Assembly (NCBI RefSeq): GCF_004345675.1
Contig: NZ_SLWU01000002.1
Location: 62,001-126,000, forward strand
DNA: 64,000 nt
DNA from: Caldanaerobacter subterraneus
Lineage (GTDB): Bacteria > Bacillota > Thermoanaerobacteria > Thermoanaerobacterales > Thermoanaerobacteraceae
Direction: 5' to 3'
Shown here: piece by piece, positions 12,538 to 60,666 of the stretch
How positions within the stretch are numbered: position 1 is the stretch's first letter
Layout of the letters: every line of letters begins with the position of its first letter
Position numbers and translations under genes: made by a program
The notes under the pieces: model-generated
What the model was told of the DNA's origin: nothing
Databases searched by the model: none
The model's input: the letters and a program-made list of their open reading frames with translations, nothing else

Positions 12538-13761
12538 ATGTTAGAGCTTTTGGCGCCAGTTGGAGATTTGGAAAGGCTAAAGGTTGCTGTAAAATACGGA
12601 GCAGATGCTGTTTACTTTGGAGGACAAAATTACAGCTTAAGAGCCTATGTGGGGCTTACACTTGATGAGATAAAAGAGGGTGTTAGATATTTAAAAAAAA
12701 GCAACAGAAAAGCCTATATCACCATAAATATTTTTCCCCACAATAAGGATTTAGAAGAGCTGCCGGAATACATTAAAAAAGTTATAGACCTCGGAGTAGA
12801 TGCTGTTATTGTCTCTGATTTGGGAGTTTTTTCTATAGTTAAGGAAATTGCTCCTGAGATAGATGTACACATAAGCACTCAGGCTAATACTGTAAATTAC
12901 TTGACTGCAAATTTCTGGCACAGATTAGGTGCAAAGAGAATAATTTTAGCAAGAGAGCTTTCTTTAAAGGAAATAAAAGAGATAAGGGATAAGACGCCTC
13001 CTTCTTTAGAATTGGAGGCTTTTGTGCACGGTGCTATGTGCATATCCTATTCAGGGCGATGCCTTTTGAGCAATTACCTGACAGGAAGAGACGCCAACAA
13101 AGGGGAATGTGCGCAGCCCTGCCGGTGGAAATATTACCTGATGGAAGAAAAAAGGCCGGGAGAGTATTTTCCTATTGAAGAAGACGGGCGAGGCACTTAT
13201 ATTTTAAATTCAAAAGACCTGTGCATGATAGAGTACATTCCTCAATTGGTAGAAGCTGGAGTTACAAGTTTTAAAATTGAGGGGAGAAACAAGAGCGCAT
13301 ATTACGTTGCGGTGGTTACACGGGCTTATAGGAAGGCAATTGACGATTACCTTGAAAAAGGGAAGGATTACGTTTTTGACAGGAGCCTTCTTGAGGAAGT
13401 GGGGAAGGCAAGCCACAGAGGATTTACCACAGGCTTTTATTTTGGCAGGCCGGGGGCAGATGCTCAAAATTATGAGTCTTCTAAGTACATCCGCACCCAT
13501 GACTTTGTGGGCATTGTCAAGAGATATGACCCTGAGACGAGGATAGCGATTGTGGAGCAGAGGAACAGAATGTTTGTTGGGGATGAAGTGGAAGTTATAG
13601 GGCCTAAGGTTCAATTTAAGCAGAAAATTGAGAAGATGTGGGATGAGGAAGGAAGAGAGATCGAAGTAGCTCCGCACCCCCAGATGATAGTGAAAATTCC
13701 TGTTGTTAATCCTGTTGAAGAGCTTTATATTTTAAGAAGAGAATCTAAAAATAATGTTTAA
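12538..13761 (+). CDS. U32 family protein, probable tRNA hydroxylation enzyme TrhP
   Basis: A 407-residue U32 'peptidase'. The N-terminal ELLAPVGDLERLKVAVKYGADAVYFGG and the cysteine-rich motif GAMCISYSGRCLLSNYLTGR with ECAQPCRW near residues 165-200 are diagnostic and supply Fe-S ligands. TrhP proteins use prephenate to make 5-hydroxyuridine at tRNA U34, which TrmR then methylates; the adjacent methyltransferase supports this reading over proteolysis. Bacillus carries two such genes here; only one is present in this window. Confidence 0.87.
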   Translation: MLELLAPVGDLERLKVAVKYGADAVYFGGQNYSLRAYVGLTLDEIKEGVRYLKKSNRKAYITINIFPHNKDLEELPEYIKKVIDLGVDAVIVSDLGVFSIVKEIAPEIDVHISTQANTVNYLTANFWHRLGAKRIILARELSLKEIKEIRDKTPPSLELEAFVHGAMCISYSGRCLLSNYLTGRDANKGECAQPCRWKYYLMEEKRPGEYFPIEEDGRGTYILNSKDLCMIEYIPQLVEAGVTSFKIEGRNKSAYYVAVVTRAYRKAIDDYLEKGKDYVFDRSLLEEVGKASHRGFTTGFYFGRPGADAQNYESSKYIRTHDFVGIVKRYDPETRIAIVEQRNRMFVGDEVEVIGPKVQFKQKIEKMWDEEGREIEVAPHPQMIVKIPVVNPVEELYILRRESKNNV

Positions 13762-13764
13762 AAA

Positions 13765-13806
13765 AGCTCCTTTTGGGAATACTGGTTCCTGAAAGGAGCT
13801 ATTTTT
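13765..13806 (+). terminator. Hairpin before the PBP gene; terminator that also covers its SD
   Basis: Nine-bp stem AGCTCCTTT/AAAGGAGCT (13765-13773 with 13792-13800), an 18-nt loop that can itself pair GGAA/TTCC, then ATTTTT and the start codon. The AAAGGAG of the 3' arm is the only SD for the next gene. Confidence 0.7.
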
Positions 13807-15405
13807 ATGGAGAAAAGGATAGTTTTTTTGCGCATAGTTTTGGCCCTTATGATTTTTATATTGGCTGGAAGGCTTTTTTACATACAGGTAGTAAAATATA
13901 ATTTTTATTCTGAAAAAGCAATGGAACAGAGAATTAAAAGCTTTAAAATTTCAGAAAAGCGCGGAGATATATACGATAGAAACATGATACCTTTCACAGA
14001 TAGAGACTACAAAGAGTATGTCTTTGCAATACCCAAAATGATAAATGATAAAAAAAGGGCAGCAGAAATACTCAGTGAGATTACAGAAATTTCTTCCGAA
14101 AAGATTAGAGAAGATTTAAAGAGAAATAAAGACTATATCAGATATGAGATAAGAAGGGATGTAGATTTTTCTCTTCCTGTTGGAATTTTTAAACTCGAGC
14201 TTCCACAGAGGTATTCTTCAAACTCTCTTGCAAGGCATGTGATAGGATATCTTGGAGATAAAAAGATGGGGTTGGAGGAATCTTTTGATGAGGTTTTGAC
14301 TACAGATGCCAGCGACAGCATTGCAGTCTTTACTGATGGCAGCAGAAATGACTATATAAAGGGATTAGGTGTAAAAATACAAACCGTTCACGACAAAGTT
14401 TTTGGTGTAAAAACCACTCTAGACTACCATATACAGAAGGTGGTGGAAGATGTACTTGACAGGCGTAGGATAGAAGGAGCAGCAGTTGTACTGGAGGTAA
14501 AAACAGGGAATATACTAGCGATGGCGAGTAGGCCTAATTTTGACCAGAACAGGATAGAAGATTATTTAAAAAGCTCTAATGAAGAGTTTATAAATAAGGC
14601 TGTATCTGGCTATCCCCCTGGATCTATTTTTAAAATCATAGTTGCTGCGGCAGCTTTAGAATCTGGGAAAGTCAGCTTAGAAGATACTTTTTACTGCAGT
14701 GGAAGCTATGATATAAATGGAGTTGTCTTTCACGATTTTAAGGGAGAGAGCCATGGCTTGATAAATATAGTCAAAGGTTTTGCAGTTTCCTGCAATACAA
14801 CTTTTATAAGGATAGGGGAGATAACAGGTGCAAAAGCTATTTTAGACATGGCAAGAAAATTTGGGATAGAGAAAGACGATGGTCTTCCAATACCGGAGCA
14901 AATAGGAAGGCTTCCAAAGCTTTCTGACACATACGGCGCTGGCATTGGAAATCTTTCGATAGGCCAGGGAGAAGTTTTGATGACTCCGCTTCAAGCTGCC
15001 GATATAGTAGCTACAATTGCGAATGATGGTATAAGGAATGTACCGCGTCTTGTGGAGGCAGTGGTGGATGAAAAGGGAGAGGAGGTTAAGAGATTTCCGC
15101 CTCGAGAATCATATAGAGTGTTAGAAAGTAACACAGCCAAAATTTTGAGGTATATGATGAGGCAAGTGGTGGTTGACCCGGAGGGGACAGGCAAAAGAGC
15201 AGAGACTTTTTGCAAAAGTGCTGGAAAGACAGGTTCTGCAGAGGTCAACAAAGAATTAAATATATATCATGCCTGGTTTGTAGGCTTTGTGCCTTATGAA
15301 AATCCCAAGTATTCTATTGCTGTATTTGTTAAAAACGGAGACACAGGGGGAATAAAGGCCGCTCCTATTTTCAAAGAAATAGCCGAAGAGATAATTAAAT
15401 ACTGA
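13807..15405 (+). CDS. Class B penicillin-binding protein (transpeptidase)
   Basis: A 532-residue peptidoglycan D,D-transpeptidase anchored by one N-terminal helix (about residues 7-27). A short dimerisation domain begins RGDIYDRNMIPF. The penicillin-binding domain has the active-site SIFK (in GYPPGSIFKII near residue 277), the SCN triad in AVSCNTTF, and KTG in AGKTGSAEV near residue 478. It lacks PASTA repeats and is compact, resembling PBP2/SpoVD relatives. Its position before sigK suggests but does not prove a sporulation role. Confidence 0.9.
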   Translation: MEKRIVFLRIVLALMIFILAGRLFYIQVVKYNFYSEKAMEQRIKSFKISEKRGDIYDRNMIPFTDRDYKEYVFAIPKMINDKKRAAEILSEITEISSEKIREDLKRNKDYIRYEIRRDVDFSLPVGIFKLELPQRYSSNSLARHVIGYLGDKKMGLEESFDEVLTTDASDSIAVFTDGSRNDYIKGLGVKIQTVHDKVFGVKTTLDYHIQKVVEDVLDRRRIEGAAVVLEVKTGNILAMASRPNFDQNRIEDYLKSSNEEFINKAVSGYPPGSIFKIIVAAAALESGKVSLEDTFYCSGSYDINGVVFHDFKGESHGLINIVKGFAVSCNTTFIRIGEITGAKAILDMARKFGIEKDDGLPIPEQIGRLPKLSDTYGAGIGNLSIGQGEVLMTPLQAADIVATIANDGIRNVPRLVEAVVDEKGEEVKRFPPRESYRVLESNTAKILRYMMRQVVVDPEGTGKRAETFCKSAGKTGSAEVNKELNIYHAWFVGFVPYENPKYSIAVFVKNGDTGGIKAAPIFKEIAEEIIKY

Positions 15406-15413
15406 TGTACAGG

Positions 15414-15471
15414 CACCTTTTTCAGATAAAACCATATAATAAATGTGTAATTTATTAAAAAAGAAGAGGTG
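15414..15471 (+). repeat. Weak inverted repeat bracketing the sigK promoter and SD
   Basis: CACCTTTTT (15414-15422) can pair with GAAGAGGTG (15463-15471) as nine bp including two G-U. The 3' arm is the sigK SD; the promoter -10 is in the loop. It is a weaker version of the layout at spoIVB, spoIIM and dacF. Confidence 0.35.
15415..15441 (+). promoter_or_regulatory. Sigma-K-type promoter before sigK
   Basis: AC at 15415-15416 within CACC, a 16-nt spacer, and CATATAATA at 15433-15441, matching the sigma-K pattern AC-N16/17-CATANNNTA. CATATAAT is also close to the sigma-E -10, but no sigma-E -35 is visible. Confidence 0.6.
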
Positions 15472-15477
15472 GCGGCC

Positions 15478-16173
15478 GTGTGGGAAGTTATTGCTGCACT
15501 TGTAGGAACCATAGTAAAGGAGATACTGAATTTAGGTTACCTTACTAACACCAATTCTTTTCCAAGCCCTTTATCCCCTGAAGAAGAGAGAAAGTACTTG
15601 GAAGCGTACAGAAGAGGAGACGAAGAGGCAAGGAATATATTGATTGAGAGAAATTTAAGACTGGTCGCTCATGTGGTAAAAAAGTATAGCGGGACAGGAA
15701 GAGATTTAGATGACCTTATTTCTATAGGGACAATTGGACTTATTAAAGCCATAGATACTTATGACTTTGAAAAAGGCACACATCTTGCCACATATGCTGC
15801 AAAGTGCATAGAAAATGAAATCCTCATGTCCATAAGGGCAGAGAAAAAGATGAAAGGAGAAGTTTTTCTTCAAGACCCAATAGGGGTAGATAAGGAAGGA
15901 AATGAAATCTCACTAATGGATGTACTTGGGACAGATGAGGATGAGGTATCTGAGCAGGTGGAAAAGAAGATACAGATTAAAAAGCTTTACAGTAAGTTAA
16001 ACAGCGTCTTAAAAAACAGGGAGCGCATGATAATAGAAATGAGATATGGGCTTTACAATGGAAGAGTGAGGACTCAGAGGGAAATTGCGAAAATGCTTGG
16101 AATTTCTCGTTCTTACGTATCGAGAATTGAGAAGAAAGCCTTGAATAAGCTTTATAAAGAGCTTTCAATGTGA
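15478..16173 (+). CDS. sigK: RNA polymerase sporulation sigma factor sigma-K (pro-form)
   Basis: A 231-residue sigma-70 family protein directing late mother-cell transcription. The N-terminal hydrophobic pro-sequence (WEVIAALVGTIVKEIL) that tethers pro-sigma-K until SpoIVFB-type cleavage is present. Region 2 (NLRLVAHVVKKY, RDLDDLISIGTIGLIKAIDTY), the family-specific FLQDPIGVDKEGNEISL and the C-terminal HTH (TQREIAKMLGISRSYVSRIEKKAL) follow. GTG 15478 is preferred over GTG 15469 because AGAAGAGG then has correct spacing. The gene is continuous; no skin-type element splits it. Confidence 0.95.
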   Translation: MWEVIAALVGTIVKEILNLGYLTNTNSFPSPLSPEEERKYLEAYRRGDEEARNILIERNLRLVAHVVKKYSGTGRDLDDLISIGTIGLIKAIDTYDFEKGTHLATYAAKCIENEILMSIRAEKKMKGEVFLQDPIGVDKEGNEISLMDVLGTDEDEVSEQVEKKIQIKKLYSKLNSVLKNRERMIIEMRYGLYNGRVRTQREIAKMLGISRSYVSRIEKKALNKLYKELSM

Positions 16174-50088: not shown

Positions 50089-50097
50089 CTTCATCCT

Positions 50098-50207
50098 CAT
50101 CTCGCTTCCTTTTGCTATCGGGATAATTTATTTACAGTATATAAGCACTTCAAAAGGGTTAATTTAAATGTAGATTCAGCTGAAGTTTTGAAAAAGGAAG
50201 TGAGATG
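50098..50207 (+). repeat. Long-range inverted repeat enclosing the spoIVB promoter and covering its SD and start codon
   Basis: Sixteen nt at 50098-50113 pair with 50192-50207 (15 Watson-Crick pairs and one G-U). The 3' arm contains GGAAGTGAG, the SD, and the ATG at 50205. The 78-nt loop holds the sigma-F-type promoter. No T run follows, so it is not a terminator. Confidence 0.75.
50137..50165 (+). promoter_or_regulatory. Sigma-F-type promoter for spoIVB
   Basis: GTATA, 15-nt spacer, GGTTAATTT, matching the sigma-F consensus GYWTA-N15/16-GGHRARHTW except one position. Bacillus spoIVB is expressed in the forespore under sigma-F and sigma-G. Confidence 0.65.
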
Positions 50208-51494
50208 ATGAATAGGAAATTAATAAAGCTGGTTTTATTTGCCCTATTGAGCTTTTTTTTAGTATTTGCAAACTACTTTACACCTATTCAGGAGCTAGCA
50301 AAAACACCCTCTAATTTCAAAATTTTTCAGGGTGATAAGCTAAGTTACAATTTTAAATTTCCTTTTAAAATTACGTTTGAAATTGACAAAGAAGGGCTTT
50401 TGAGAATAAATGGAAAAGATAAGATAACCATTGAAGCAGTAAACACTGGAAAAGCAAATTTAGATGTAAAATTATTTGGATTTTTACCTTTAAAACACAT
50501 AAATGTTGATGTAGTGCCTACGATAAAAGTCGTACCTGGAGGGCAAGCAATAGGAGTGAAACTTAATACAAAAGGAGCCCTAGTGGTAGGTTATTCGGAC
50601 ATAATGGGAGAAGATGGGAAAATTTACAGCCCGTATAAAGAAGGTAAAATTCAGATTGGAGACATAATTTTAGAAGTAAACGGAGTCGAGATAAAGCAGG
50701 CGGAAGATATTACAAATATTGCTAATAAACTTCAAGGCAAGGCTTTGAAGCTCAAAATTAACAGGAAAAATGCCATACTTTACACTGTCATTCATCCTGT
50801 AAAATCTAAAGAAGATAAGCAGTATAGAATTGGATTGTGGGTGAGGGACCATACTGCGGGGATTGGCACTTTGACGTTTTATTATCCTTCGCAAAAGGTG
50901 TACGCTGCATTAGGGCATGCTATAACTGACATTGATACGGGACACATGTTGTCAGTGGAAAACGGAGAAATAATGAATACTCGCATTACATCTATTGACC
51001 AAGGTCGCAGAAGCAAGCCAGGAGAATTGAAGGGGGTGTTTTTTGAAGAGATAGATGCGATAGGAAATATTTTAAAAAATACTCAGTTTGGCATATATGG
51101 CTACATGTACAAGGACTTTAAGAATGAATTCTATGGAGAGATTCCTGTCGCTTATCAAGGACAGATAAAAGAAGGACCTGCTAAAATACTTGCTACCATT
51201 GATAATAAAGGAGTACAGGAGTTTGACGTAGAAATTGTGAAAAAGGTGTATCAAGAGTCACCTACTCCAAAAGGCATGATAGTAAGGATTGTAGATAAGA
51301 ACCTCTTGGCCAAGACTGGAGGAATAATACAGGGTATGAGCGGAAGCCCCATAATTCAAAATGGAAAACTTGTAGGAGCTATAACTCACGTGTTTGTCAA
51401 TGACCCTTCAAAAGGCTATGCTGTTTACGCAGAATGGATGATAAATGAAGTGAATAACTTGCTCAACGATAAGCAGGTTTTTATAAATGAATAA
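50205..51494 (+). CDS. spoIVB: SpoIVB serine peptidase
   Basis: A 429-residue secreted peptidase of the sigma-K checkpoint: made in the forespore, it cleaves SpoIVFA and frees the pro-sigma-K protease. It has an N-terminal membrane anchor (LVLFALLSFFLVFANYF), a PDZ domain (about residues 105-205, IQIGDIILEVNGVEI) and the SA-clan protease domain with the catalytic His in ALGHAITDIDTGH and the Ser in GMSGSPIIQNGKLVGAITHVFVND near residue 384. ATGATG start with GGAAGTGAG. Pro-sigma-K, its ultimate target, is encoded at 15.5 kb. Confidence 0.95.
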   Translation: MMNRKLIKLVLFALLSFFLVFANYFTPIQELAKTPSNFKIFQGDKLSYNFKFPFKITFEIDKEGLLRINGKDKITIEAVNTGKANLDVKLFGFLPLKHINVDVVPTIKVVPGGQAIGVKLNTKGALVVGYSDIMGEDGKIYSPYKEGKIQIGDIILEVNGVEIKQAEDITNIANKLQGKALKLKINRKNAILYTVIHPVKSKEDKQYRIGLWVRDHTAGIGTLTFYYPSQKVYAALGHAITDIDTGHMLSVENGEIMNTRITSIDQGRRSKPGELKGVFFEEIDAIGNILKNTQFGIYGYMYKDFKNEFYGEIPVAYQGQIKEGPAKILATIDNKGVQEFDVEIVKKVYQESPTPKGMIVRIVDKNLLAKTGGIIQGMSGSPIIQNGKLVGAITHVFVNDPSKGYAVYAEWMINEVNNLLNDKQVFINE

Positions 51495-57246: not shown

Positions 57247-57789
57247 ATGGAACAAAAAGAGCCTACAGTAAGCACTAGAAAGGTATTTGAAGGGAAGATA
57301 ATAAACTTAAGAGTTGATGAGGTAAGGCTTCCAAATGGGAAAATAACTACGAGAGAAATAGTAGAGCACCCTGGCGGTGTCTCAATAGTAGCAGTCACAA
57401 ATGATGGGAAAATCCTTTTAGTAAAACAGTACAGAAAACCGGCTGAAGAAGTTTTGCTAGAGATACCTGCAGGAAAGCTGGAAAAAGGAGAAGACCCTTT
57501 GGAGTGTGCCAAAAGAGAGCTTTCAGAAGAGACAGGGTATGAAGCGGGTCACATAGAGCATTTGATTACTTTTTACACTACTCCTGGCTTTTCCAATGAA
57601 AAGATGTACCTTTATTTTGCAAAGGATTTAAAGAAAAGCAAGATACATCCTGATGAAGATGAGTTTTTAGAAGTGGGCGAATATTTTCCGGAAGAACTGT
57701 GGAAGATGATTTTAGAAAATAAGATAAAAGATTCCAAAACGATAATAGGCGTTCTGTACTATTTGAAAATGAGGAATGAAAAAATATGA
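57247..57789 (+). CDS. ADP-ribose pyrophosphatase (Nudix hydrolase)
   Basis: A 180-residue NudF-type hydrolase. The Nudix box GKLEKGEDPLECAKRELSEETGY fits GX5EX7REUXEEXGU exactly. The N-terminal KVFEGKIINLRVDEVRLPNGKITTREIVEHPGGVSIVAV and the later FYTTPGFSNEKMYLYFAKDL are typical of ADP-ribose-specific members. The 161-nt gap upstream holds no other gene; an imperfect hairpin there may pair with the SD AAAGGAAGG. Confidence 0.9.
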   Translation: MEQKEPTVSTRKVFEGKIINLRVDEVRLPNGKITTREIVEHPGGVSIVAVTNDGKILLVKQYRKPAEEVLLEIPAGKLEKGEDPLECAKRELSEETGYEAGHIEHLITFYTTPGFSNEKMYLYFAKDLKKSKIHPDEDEFLEVGEYFPEELWKMILENKIKDSKTIIGVLYYLKMRNEKI

Positions 57790-58961
57790 TGAAGATTTAT
57801 GGAGATTTGCACATCCACATAGGTAGAACTGAAAAGGGTATTTCTGTAAAAGTCGCTGCTTCGAAGGATTTGACTGTTTTAAACATTTTAGAAAGAAGCT
57901 TATTAAAGGGGATAAACGTTGTCGGTATAGTAGATTGTGCATCTCCACCTGTAATTCACGAGATAAAAAGACATTGCGAAGAAGGAGTGCTATCTTGCAT
58001 TGAAGGAGGAGGACTTAAGTACAAGGGAAAAGTTACGCTGATTTTAGGAAGTGAAATTGAAATTGGGGGAGAAGAAGAAGGCTCTCCCCATTTAATTGGA
58101 TATTTTAAAAGCATAGAAGACATTTCCTCTTTTTCTGAAAAAATAGGCAAGTACATGAAAAATATAAGATTGAGTTCCCAAAGAGTAAGCCTAAACAGCG
58201 AACAGGCAGTAGAAGTTATAAAAAGCTGTAACGGTATAGTTGTTCCTGCTCACGTTTTTACTCCTTTTAAAAGCTATTACGGAAGCTGTACTGATAGATT
58301 GCACAAGGTCTTTAAAGACCGCTACAAGGAAATTGAGGCAGTAGAATTGGGACTGAGCGCTGACTCGGATATGGCGGACCAAATTGAAGAGCTATCATTA
58401 AAGATTTTTCTTTCTAATTCAGATGCCCATTCTTTAAACAAAATTGGAAGGGAATTTAATGTCTTTGAGGTAGAAGAAGCAAATTTTGAAGAAATCTTAA
58501 TGGCTCTAAAGAGAGAAAAGGGAAGAAAAGTTGTAAAAAATTACGGCTTAGACCCTAAATTGGGGAAGTACCACAGGACTTTCTGCCTTGAATGCGGTTA
58601 TATAGCGAAAGAAACTCCCCCTGTTAGAAGATGCCCCAGATGTGGAAGTGATAAAGTATTGATGGGGGTAAGAGACAGAATAGAAGAAATAAAAGACTAT
58701 GATACCAGACATCCTGATTTTAGACCCCCCTATATCTATCAGATTCCTTTGGAATTTATTCCTAATATAGGAAAAAGAACAGTAGAAAAGCTTGTACATC
58801 ACTTTGGAAGTGAACTTTACGCTCTTCATGAGGCTTCTTACGAAGATCTAGAGAAGGTCGTAGGTGAGAAAAACGCTCTCAATATTTTAAAGGCGAGAAA
58901 TGGAGAACTTACTGTTTCTTCGGGTGGAGGCGGAATATACGGGAAGGTATTGTTAGAATAG
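57786..58961 (+). CDS. Endonuclease Q family protein (PHP nuclease with zinc ribbon and HhH)
   Basis: A 391-residue protein with an N-terminal PHP domain (MKIYGDLHIHIGR; VGIVDCASPPVIHEI; VVPAHVFTPF; SNSDAHSLNKIGREF), a zinc ribbon (CLECGYIAKETPPVRRCPRCG, about residues 265-286) and a C-terminal helix-hairpin-helix (IPNIGKRTVEKLVHHFG). This is the architecture of archaeal EndoQ, which nicks DNA beside deaminated bases; a role in heat-driven deamination repair is inferred. It overlaps nudF by four nt. Confidence 0.85.
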   Translation: MMKIYGDLHIHIGRTEKGISVKVAASKDLTVLNILERSLLKGINVVGIVDCASPPVIHEIKRHCEEGVLSCIEGGGLKYKGKVTLILGSEIEIGGEEEGSPHLIGYFKSIEDISSFSEKIGKYMKNIRLSSQRVSLNSEQAVEVIKSCNGIVVPAHVFTPFKSYYGSCTDRLHKVFKDRYKEIEAVELGLSADSDMADQIEELSLKIFLSNSDAHSLNKIGREFNVFEVEEANFEEILMALKREKGRKVVKNYGLDPKLGKYHRTFCLECGYIAKETPPVRRCPRCGSDKVLMGVRDRIEEIKDYDTRHPDFRPPYIYQIPLEFIPNIGKRTVEKLVHHFGSELYALHEASYEDLEKVVGEKNALNILKARNGELTVSSGGGGIYGKVLLE

Positions 58962-58966
58962 TTGAG

Positions 58967-58995
58967 GAATATTGTCCCCTTTTTATTCATAAATT
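58967..58995 (+). promoter_or_regulatory. Sigma-E promoter for spoIIM
   Basis: GAATATT (perfect to KMATATT), 14-nt spacer, CATAAATT (7 of 8 to CATACAWT). The -35 is embedded in the 5' arm of an inverted repeat and the -10 is in its loop. Confidence 0.8.
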
Positions 58996-59029
58996 TAAAT
59001 TAGCAAAGAAAAAATAGGGGGCAATATTC
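58967..59029 (+). repeat. Inverted repeat overlapping the spoIIM promoter and SD
   Basis: GAATATTGTCCCCT (58967-58980) pairs with AGGGGGCAATATTC (59016-59029): 13 Watson-Crick pairs and one G-U, with a 35-nt loop. The 3' arm contains the SD AGGGGG; the start TTG follows at 59030. No T run follows the stem. Confidence 0.85.
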
Positions 59030-59653
59030 TTGAAATTTGTAAAGGCAGGATTTTATTCCCATATCAGAGGAAATTTTTTTCTATATGTGCTGGTGTTAAC
59101 TGCTCTGATGATTGGCACTACTACAGGGGCCTTTACAGTAAACAATATAACTGACATTCAAAGGGAGCAGATAAGAGAATATATTTCCAAGTTTTATCAA
59201 ATTGCAAAGACTATAGAACTAAGTCCCGTGCAGATTTTTAAGCAATCTCTTTTAAACAATTTTGTGACAGTCTTTTTGCTCTGGATTTTGGGAGCCACCA
59301 TAATAGGCATTCCTTTTATATTTCTAATCGTTGGCATGAGAGGTTTTACGTTAGGCTTTTCAATAGGCGTACTGATTAAGGAAATGCAAATGAAGGGAGT
59401 ACTTCTAACGCTTTTGGGGGTATTGCCTCAGAATATTTTTATACTTTTAGGGATTTTGTTTACTTCAGTTACTGCAATCAATTTTTCTGTATATCTTTTG
59501 AAAAATAAAAAATTTTACTTTGAGGAATTAGCTTCCCAATTTATTTCCTACACTTTTGCAATTTATGCAGGCTTTCTGTTTATAATGCTGGGATGCCTGA
59601 TAGAGTCTTACCTTATCCCGTATGTATTACTTCTTCCTATTTTTTCGCTGTAG
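59030..59653 (+). CDS. spoIIM: Stage II sporulation protein M
   Basis: A 207-residue polytopic protein (DUF95 family) of the SpoIID-M-P engulfment machine in the mother cell. Helices lie near residues 14-38, 78-100, 120-150 and 180-205. The conserved core is FLLWILGATIIGIPFIFLIVGMRGFTLGFSIGVLIKEMQMKGVLLTLLGVLPQNIFIL. TTG start with AGGGGG eight nt upstream. The sigma-E promoter before it agrees with Bacillus. Confidence 0.94.
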   Translation: MKFVKAGFYSHIRGNFFLYVLVLTALMIGTTTGAFTVNNITDIQREQIREYISKFYQIAKTIELSPVQIFKQSLLNNFVTVFLLWILGATIIGIPFIFLIVGMRGFTLGFSIGVLIKEMQMKGVLLTLLGVLPQNIFILLGILFTSVTAINFSVYLLKNKKFYFEELASQFISYTFAIYAGFLFIMLGCLIESYLIPYVLLLPIFSL

Positions 59654-59665
59654 AAAAGAAGGAAA

Positions 59666-59693
59666 TTGACGATTTATGTTGAATATTTATAAT
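59666..59693 (+). promoter_or_regulatory. Sigma-A promoter for the xerD-like gene
   Basis: TTGACG, 16-nt spacer, perfect TATAAT, in the gap after spoIIM. Confidence 0.7.
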
Positions 59694-60608: not shown

Positions 60609-60639
60609 GCATAAAATTCACCCTCCGGTACACAATATA
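60609..60639 (+). promoter_or_regulatory. Possible forespore (sigma-G/F) promoter for dacF
   Basis: GCATA (fits GHATR), 19-nt spacer, CAATATA (6 of 7 to CATWMTA). The spacer is one nt long for sigma-G, so this is tentative; dacF is a forespore gene in Bacillus. Confidence 0.4.
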
Positions 60640-60666
60640 AAATAGCAACGAAGGAGGGTGAATTTT
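60613..60666 (+). repeat. Perfect 14-bp inverted repeat covering the dacF SD
   Basis: AAAATTCACCCTCC (60613-60626) and its exact reverse complement (60653-60666) flank a 26-nt loop. The 3' arm holds AAGGAGG, the dacF SD, and the start codon follows two nt later. The terminal T run could also let it act as a weak terminator for xerD. Confidence 0.88.

Follow-up and report, generated by a model that had tools for sequence, protein, structure and literature searches.

In IS10-type elements, transcripts that enter the transposase gene from outside fold over its ribosome site, and the element's own promoter starts inside the folded region. A related arrangement is described for bacteriophage T4, where a helix in the early read-through RNA of gene e, and also of soc, 49 and I-TevI, hides the ribosome site; the late promoters lie within the DNA encoding the 5′ strand of the helix, so that late RNA is without that strand (PMC3014915). 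For gene e an approximately 100-fold lower translation was shown experimentally (PMC3014915). In Bacillus subtilis, sigG lies downstream of sigE, and a hairpin of >20 bp has been proposed to keep spoIIG read-through RNA from being translated; RNA made by the sigG promoter is unable to form this hairpin (PMC5942855). The passages on this hairpin in that source concern sigG only and do not discuss spoIIM, spoIIP, spoIVB, dacF or safA (PMC5942855).

The spoIIM locus described here has in common with T4 gene e that the read-through RNA is masked and that RNA from the stage-specific promoter lacks the 5′ strand, both as predicted for spoIIM. However, the T4 case concerns a phage late sigma factor and the timing of lysis, whereas spoIIM is a chromosomal developmental gene with a sigma-E promoter whose −35 element is itself in the masking arm. 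IS10-type protection likewise belongs to a mobile element and not to a developmental gene. The sigG gene of the present genome has a predicted equivalent of the B. subtilis sigG hairpin. Thus the masking principle is already known, from T4 gene e and B. subtilis sigG.

The window, i.e., the whole 64,000-nt stretch of DNA that was analysed, carries spoIIM at 59030..59653 on the + strand (207 aa, TTG start; TIGR02831, 221.6 bits), preceded by the Shine-Dalgarno (SD) sequence AGGGGG at 59016..59021. All spoIIM leader features given below are on the same strand. The sequence GAATATTGTCCCCT (58967-58980) is complementary to AGGGGGCAATATTC (59016-59029) and forms 14 bp with it, 13 of them Watson-Crick and one G-U. 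The helix reaches 16 bp once A58965 and G58966 pair into the TTG start codon, which is kept across the family. The full 5′ masking (anti-SD) arm, found by duplex search and RNA folding, is thus AGGAATATTGTCCCCT (58965..58980), and the 3′ arm from the RNA fold, AGGGGGCAATATTCTT (59016..59031), contains the SD and extends into the start codon.

Important is the overlap between this stem and the promoter. GAATATT-N14-CATAAATT matches 12 of the 12 positions of the sigma-E consensus applied; the −35 element GAATATT (58967..58973) is the outer part of the 5′ masking arm, and the −10 element (58988..58995), strongly conserved among the leaders aligned with MAFFT, is within the hairpin loop. By the promoter consensus, transcription would start at 59002..59003, about 7 nt 3′ of the −10 and about 27 nt 5′ of the start codon, between the two arms. 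Native spoIIM RNA would therefore be without the mask, because the predicted sigma-E start falls downstream of the 5′ arm. An initial annotation had read GAATATT as both the −35 element and the outer end of a 14-bp SD-pairing stem, and had argued that native RNA cannot contain the masking arm; the stem and the promoter are present as it described, and the consensus-based start agrees with its argument on the native RNA.

RNA folding of 58955-59050 gives −27.1 kcal/mol versus a mean of −14.7 for shuffled sequences (z −4.3), with none of 200 shuffles reaching this value, and over the comparisons of the leader with shuffled sequence z ranges from −4.3 to −4.6. Among the 80 SD-bearing open reading frames scanned in the window, spoIIM has the top SD-masking duplex (z −10.2), and its mask comes second among the 415 genes of a 425-kb sample from this genome. 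Chance complementarity should be considered at this point, since AT-rich leaders and G-rich SDs do yield some strong duplexes and about 2.5% of genes reach z −3. Such an origin is nevertheless hardly credible for spoIIM, given its ranks in both scans and the conservation and covariation of the pairing across genera, described below, which already contradict it. At the level of sequence, a promoter-embedded SD-masking stem at spoIIM is confirmed.

In the longer, read-through form of the RNA, a stable helix is predicted over the SD and start codon. The SD is predicted to be unpaired with a probability of 0.01 at 37°C, where opening it would cost 16.0 kcal/mol, and of 0.03 at 70°C, where the cost would be about 9.5 kcal/mol. 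For RNA beginning at 59002, the predicted opening cost is 2.4 kcal/mol at 37°C and about 1.2 at 70°C. SD hairpins of a thermophile could respond to temperature, and some longer transcripts may be physiological, and the mask might then be an element on a longer spoIIM mRNA that is switched by temperature, a ligand or a small RNA, and not a constitutive block. This is very unlikely: the predicted cost of opening the SD is still 8.1 kcal/mol at 75°C, and an Rfam search at the leader gave sub-threshold matches only, with no family at gathering score. A switch is also unnecessary, because transcription from the promoter would begin within the loop.

Upstream of spoIIM, in the same direction, is a PHP-type gene (57786..58961, + strand; a profile match to TIGR00375, under the cutoff of that model), the start of which overlaps the 3′ end of nudF (57247-57789). 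It ends 68 nt from spoIIM, and a terminator scan found no forward-strand terminator between the two genes; it is thus a possible source of read-through. The position of the hairpin directly after an upstream gene would also suit an action on the read-through RNA itself and not on its translation, by termination, attenuation or RNase processing, and RNase III could cut a long duplex and in this way also lower read-through expression. These functions are quite improbable, as each species has an arm matched to its own SD and start codon. An intrinsic terminator was rejected: the stem has no T tract following it (CTTGAAATTTG), and it is not among the terminators called by the scans. A further idea, that the mask exists because xerD, the downstream gene, depends on read-through, was abandoned because xerD has a promoter match of its own (TTGACG-N16-TATAAT at 59666-59693).

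The spoIIM leaders of relatives show that the pairing is conserved despite changes in sequence. Within the family, arm and SD pairs differ, as in AATATTGTCCCCT/AGGGGGCAATATT, TAATGTCCTTCTCC/GGAGGAGGACGTTG and TATTGCCC/GGGCAATG, with both pairing and promoter kept, and a third genus keeps them as CCCTCCTT/AAGGAGGG. Pair counts were made with the arms joined by a fixed linker, because the MAFFT alignment shifted two genera by one column in the 3′ arm; where arm spacing differs, registers were set by hand from the duplexes. Over nine distinct leaders, 80% of cells in these counts are paired, versus 50-62% with a slid partner, and both sides have changed in 5 of the 14 stem pairs. The covariation score was reached by none of 500 shuffles. 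In an alignment-free swap test, native arm and SD combinations average −19.5 kcal/mol and cross-species swapped ones −14.8 (permutation p 5e-5). These covariation and swap figures are supportive but not exact, because related sequences inflate them. The housekeeping control nudF has a moderate hairpin (z −2.7) and displays no native advantage in the swap test (native −10.3, swapped −10.8, p 0.70).

An inverted repeat of this kind could also be a DNA operator, e.g., for SpoIIID or GerR, or be kept for other reasons at the DNA level, with the RNA pairing incidental. The other strand of the 5′ arm, GGACAAT, resembles a SpoIIID site, ATTGTCC is present also in two leaders without a mask (L037 and L038, described below), and spoIIM of B. 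subtilis, which is sigma-E dependent, is repressed by GerR (PMC517825). However, the 35 nt between the arms is long for a dimer operator, the SD is the centre of the pairing, and the changes seen in relatives preserve RNA pairing, G-U included. An explanation at the DNA level is thus improbable. SpoIIID in particular was rejected as the binding factor: the case for it is a motif resemblance, and B. subtilis spoIIM is listed as outside SpoIIID control.

The initial annotation had proposed to align this region across related genomes. All family spoIIM leaders examined keep the promoter and the pairing, with both sides of the stem changing; the pairing is weak in two Thermoanaerobacterium leaders (L008, z −0.9; L031, z −1.5). 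Loss of pairing with retention of the promoter was found in none of these family leaders, but it is seen in more distant genomes, mostly where the upstream gap is large. A strong mask is absent in seven distant, clostridial spoIIM leaders (L010, L011 and L013-L017; z −1.7 to 1.2), in which spoIIM is 86-630 nt from the upstream gene, and in several of the clostridial leaders with far gaps a terminator-like stretch is visible by eye 5′ of the promoter. Leaders L037 and L038 of family f2 have a sigma-E-like promoter with no mask in it and no close upstream gene. Fitting less well are some GC-rich leaders of distant genomes that have larger gaps (L045 and L046), with z values of −1.8 and −2.6 and no clear promoter geometry, and L042 (gap of 71 nt), with only a modest pairing signal. 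Against the trend are L039 and L040, from another family, which pair weakly despite a gap of 46-48 nt. L041 belongs to a different family of the phylum and has a gap of 62 nt; in this leader, TCCTCCCC is directly 5′ of CATAAATA and pairs with the SD. Thus the mask is mostly missing where spoIIM is far from an upstream gene, a pattern that fits insulation from read-through.

Most probably, then, the spoIIM mask is a read-through insulator that acts at translation. Polymerase running on from nudF and the PHP-type gene would produce RNA with both arms; this RNA would fold into the hairpin and hide the SD and start codon, and SpoIIM would not be produced in vegetative cells. In sporulation, sigma-E polymerase would initiate inside the loop at about 59002, giving RNA without the 5′ arm, from whose open SD SpoIIM would be made in the mother cell. 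As far as sequence can tell, the interpretation that the initial annotation gave to the overlap of promoter and mask is supported.

The overlap is not unique to spoIIM. The SD-mask scan of the window has as its four strongest masks spoIIM, spoIVB, a dacF-like gene and sigK. The 11 strongest masks in the 425 kb include seven sporulation genes, spoIVB, spoIIM, safA, dacF, a PdaB-like deacetylase gene, spoIIP and sigG; the other four are an IS1182-like transposase fragment and three genes, one spoVD-like, one small and repressor-like and one unknown. A sporulation sigma class gave the top promoter score at each of the seven named sporulation genes, with the predicted start between the arms; at spoIIP the promoter match is weak (8/11). 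The same layout is found in this genome at safA, the PdaB-like gene and one unknown gene.

The dacF-like gene has a predicted sigma-F-type promoter by consensus, GCATA-N14-GTACACAATA (60609..60637), and a 14-bp mask from the duplex scan, in which the 5′ arm AAAATTCACCCTCC (60613-60626) lies in the promoter spacer and the 3′ arm with the SD is GGAGGGTGAATTTT (60653..60666). This mask is kept in relatives with altered sequence. At spoIVB, the duplex scan gives a 17-bp mask, with the 5′ arm TCATCTCGCTTCCTTTT at 50097..50113 and the 3′ arm, with the SD, AAAAGGAAGTGAGATGA at 50192..50208; the consensus-predicted sigma-F/G-type promoter, GTATA-N15-GGTTAATTTA (50137-50166), is 3′ of the 5′ arm. The features of both genes are on the + strand. 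In spoIVB of family f3 (L081, L085), the GTATA −35 element is itself the arm. The location of the arm thus varies: it covers the −35 and spacer in spoIIM, is mainly in the spacer in sigG, dacF and spoIIP, and is upstream of the −35 in spoIVB of the present genome. The initial annotation had regarded the use of the −35 as an arm as a very economical overlap of promoter and translational control; this use of the −35 is seen at spoIIM, but it is one of several solutions, and spoIVB, dacF, spoIIP and sigG carry conserved masks as well.

The masks of spoIIP, sigG, dacF and spoIVB, traced in up to 24 relatives, retain their pairing with different sequences in several families, as exemplified by the spoIIP arm and SD pairs AAGCACCTCTT/GAGAGGTGCTT, AATGTGCCCTTCTTTTT/AAAAAGAGGGGTGCATT and GGCGCCCTCTTTTG/CAAAAGAGGGTGTT, and the swap test gives a p of 6e-4 or less for each of the four genes. 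Masks have also been lost, those of spoIVB and sigG in Thermoanaerobacterium, that of dacF in families f3 and f4, and that of spoIIP in f4.

Several other loci should be noted. At sigK (window 15356-15478), the SD region can pair with a stretch within the 3′ end of the preceding coding sequence; the pairing is weaker (z −1.9 to −3.8), and a sigma-K/E-like promoter lies between the pairing stretches. At the spoVD-like penicillin-binding protein gene 5′ of sigK, a hairpin (window 13756-13807) that is also terminator-like (GCTCC..GGAGC then TATTTTT) encloses a sigma-F-like promoter, GTTTA-N14-GGGAATACTG. The gene at L053:7171-8139, behind an rsmA/ksgA-like gene, combines a strong SD mask with a sigma-E promoter (11/12); with no Pfam or NCBIfam match, it is a candidate for an unrecognised sporulation gene. 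A 77-aa peptidoglycan-binding protein gene (L181:4603-4836), behind an rRNA-methyltransferase-like gene, has an SD mask and a sigma-K-like promoter (9/10). The IS1182-like transposase fragment at L055:14094-14486 has a strong SD mask that recalls the known protection of transposases from read-through. In the small repressor-like gene at L063:682-903, GGTAGTTT-type repeats are found around a perfect sigma-A promoter, and these look like autoregulatory operators rather than a mask.

Enrichment was assessed on two samples of genome stretches. In the first (425 kb, 415 genes), which includes the window that prompted the idea, 7 of the 11 strongest masks are on sporulation genes, versus 2 of 20 random controls (hypergeometric p about 0.003, calculated by hand). 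In the second (400 kb, same scoring), at most one plausible spore gene is among 11 strong masks. Because the second sample failed to repeat the first, the claim is limited to recurrence on the named genes, and a genome-wide enrichment is unproven. A literature search, confined to open-access sources and so weak as evidence of novelty, found no such masks described on spoIIM or the other listed genes, nor their recurrence across sporulation genes. We lean toward the view that, in Thermoanaerobacteraceae and related families, sporulation genes of several sigma classes repeatedly carry such masks as a second lock, used where a developmental gene directly follows another gene and repeatedly renewed by new arms in the −35, in the spacer or just upstream.

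Control of sporulation is usually described as transcriptional, by way of stage-specific sigma factors. If masks of the present type are common, a sigma-type promoter with a −35 or spacer complementary to the gene's own SD may serve as a sequence criterion by which sporulation genes so far overlooked can be found. Transcript level alone could then mislead on the levels of sporulation proteins, and in dense bacterial genomes a developmental gene could follow a housekeeping gene directly, with no terminator in between, since RNA from any but the proper promoter would not be translatable.
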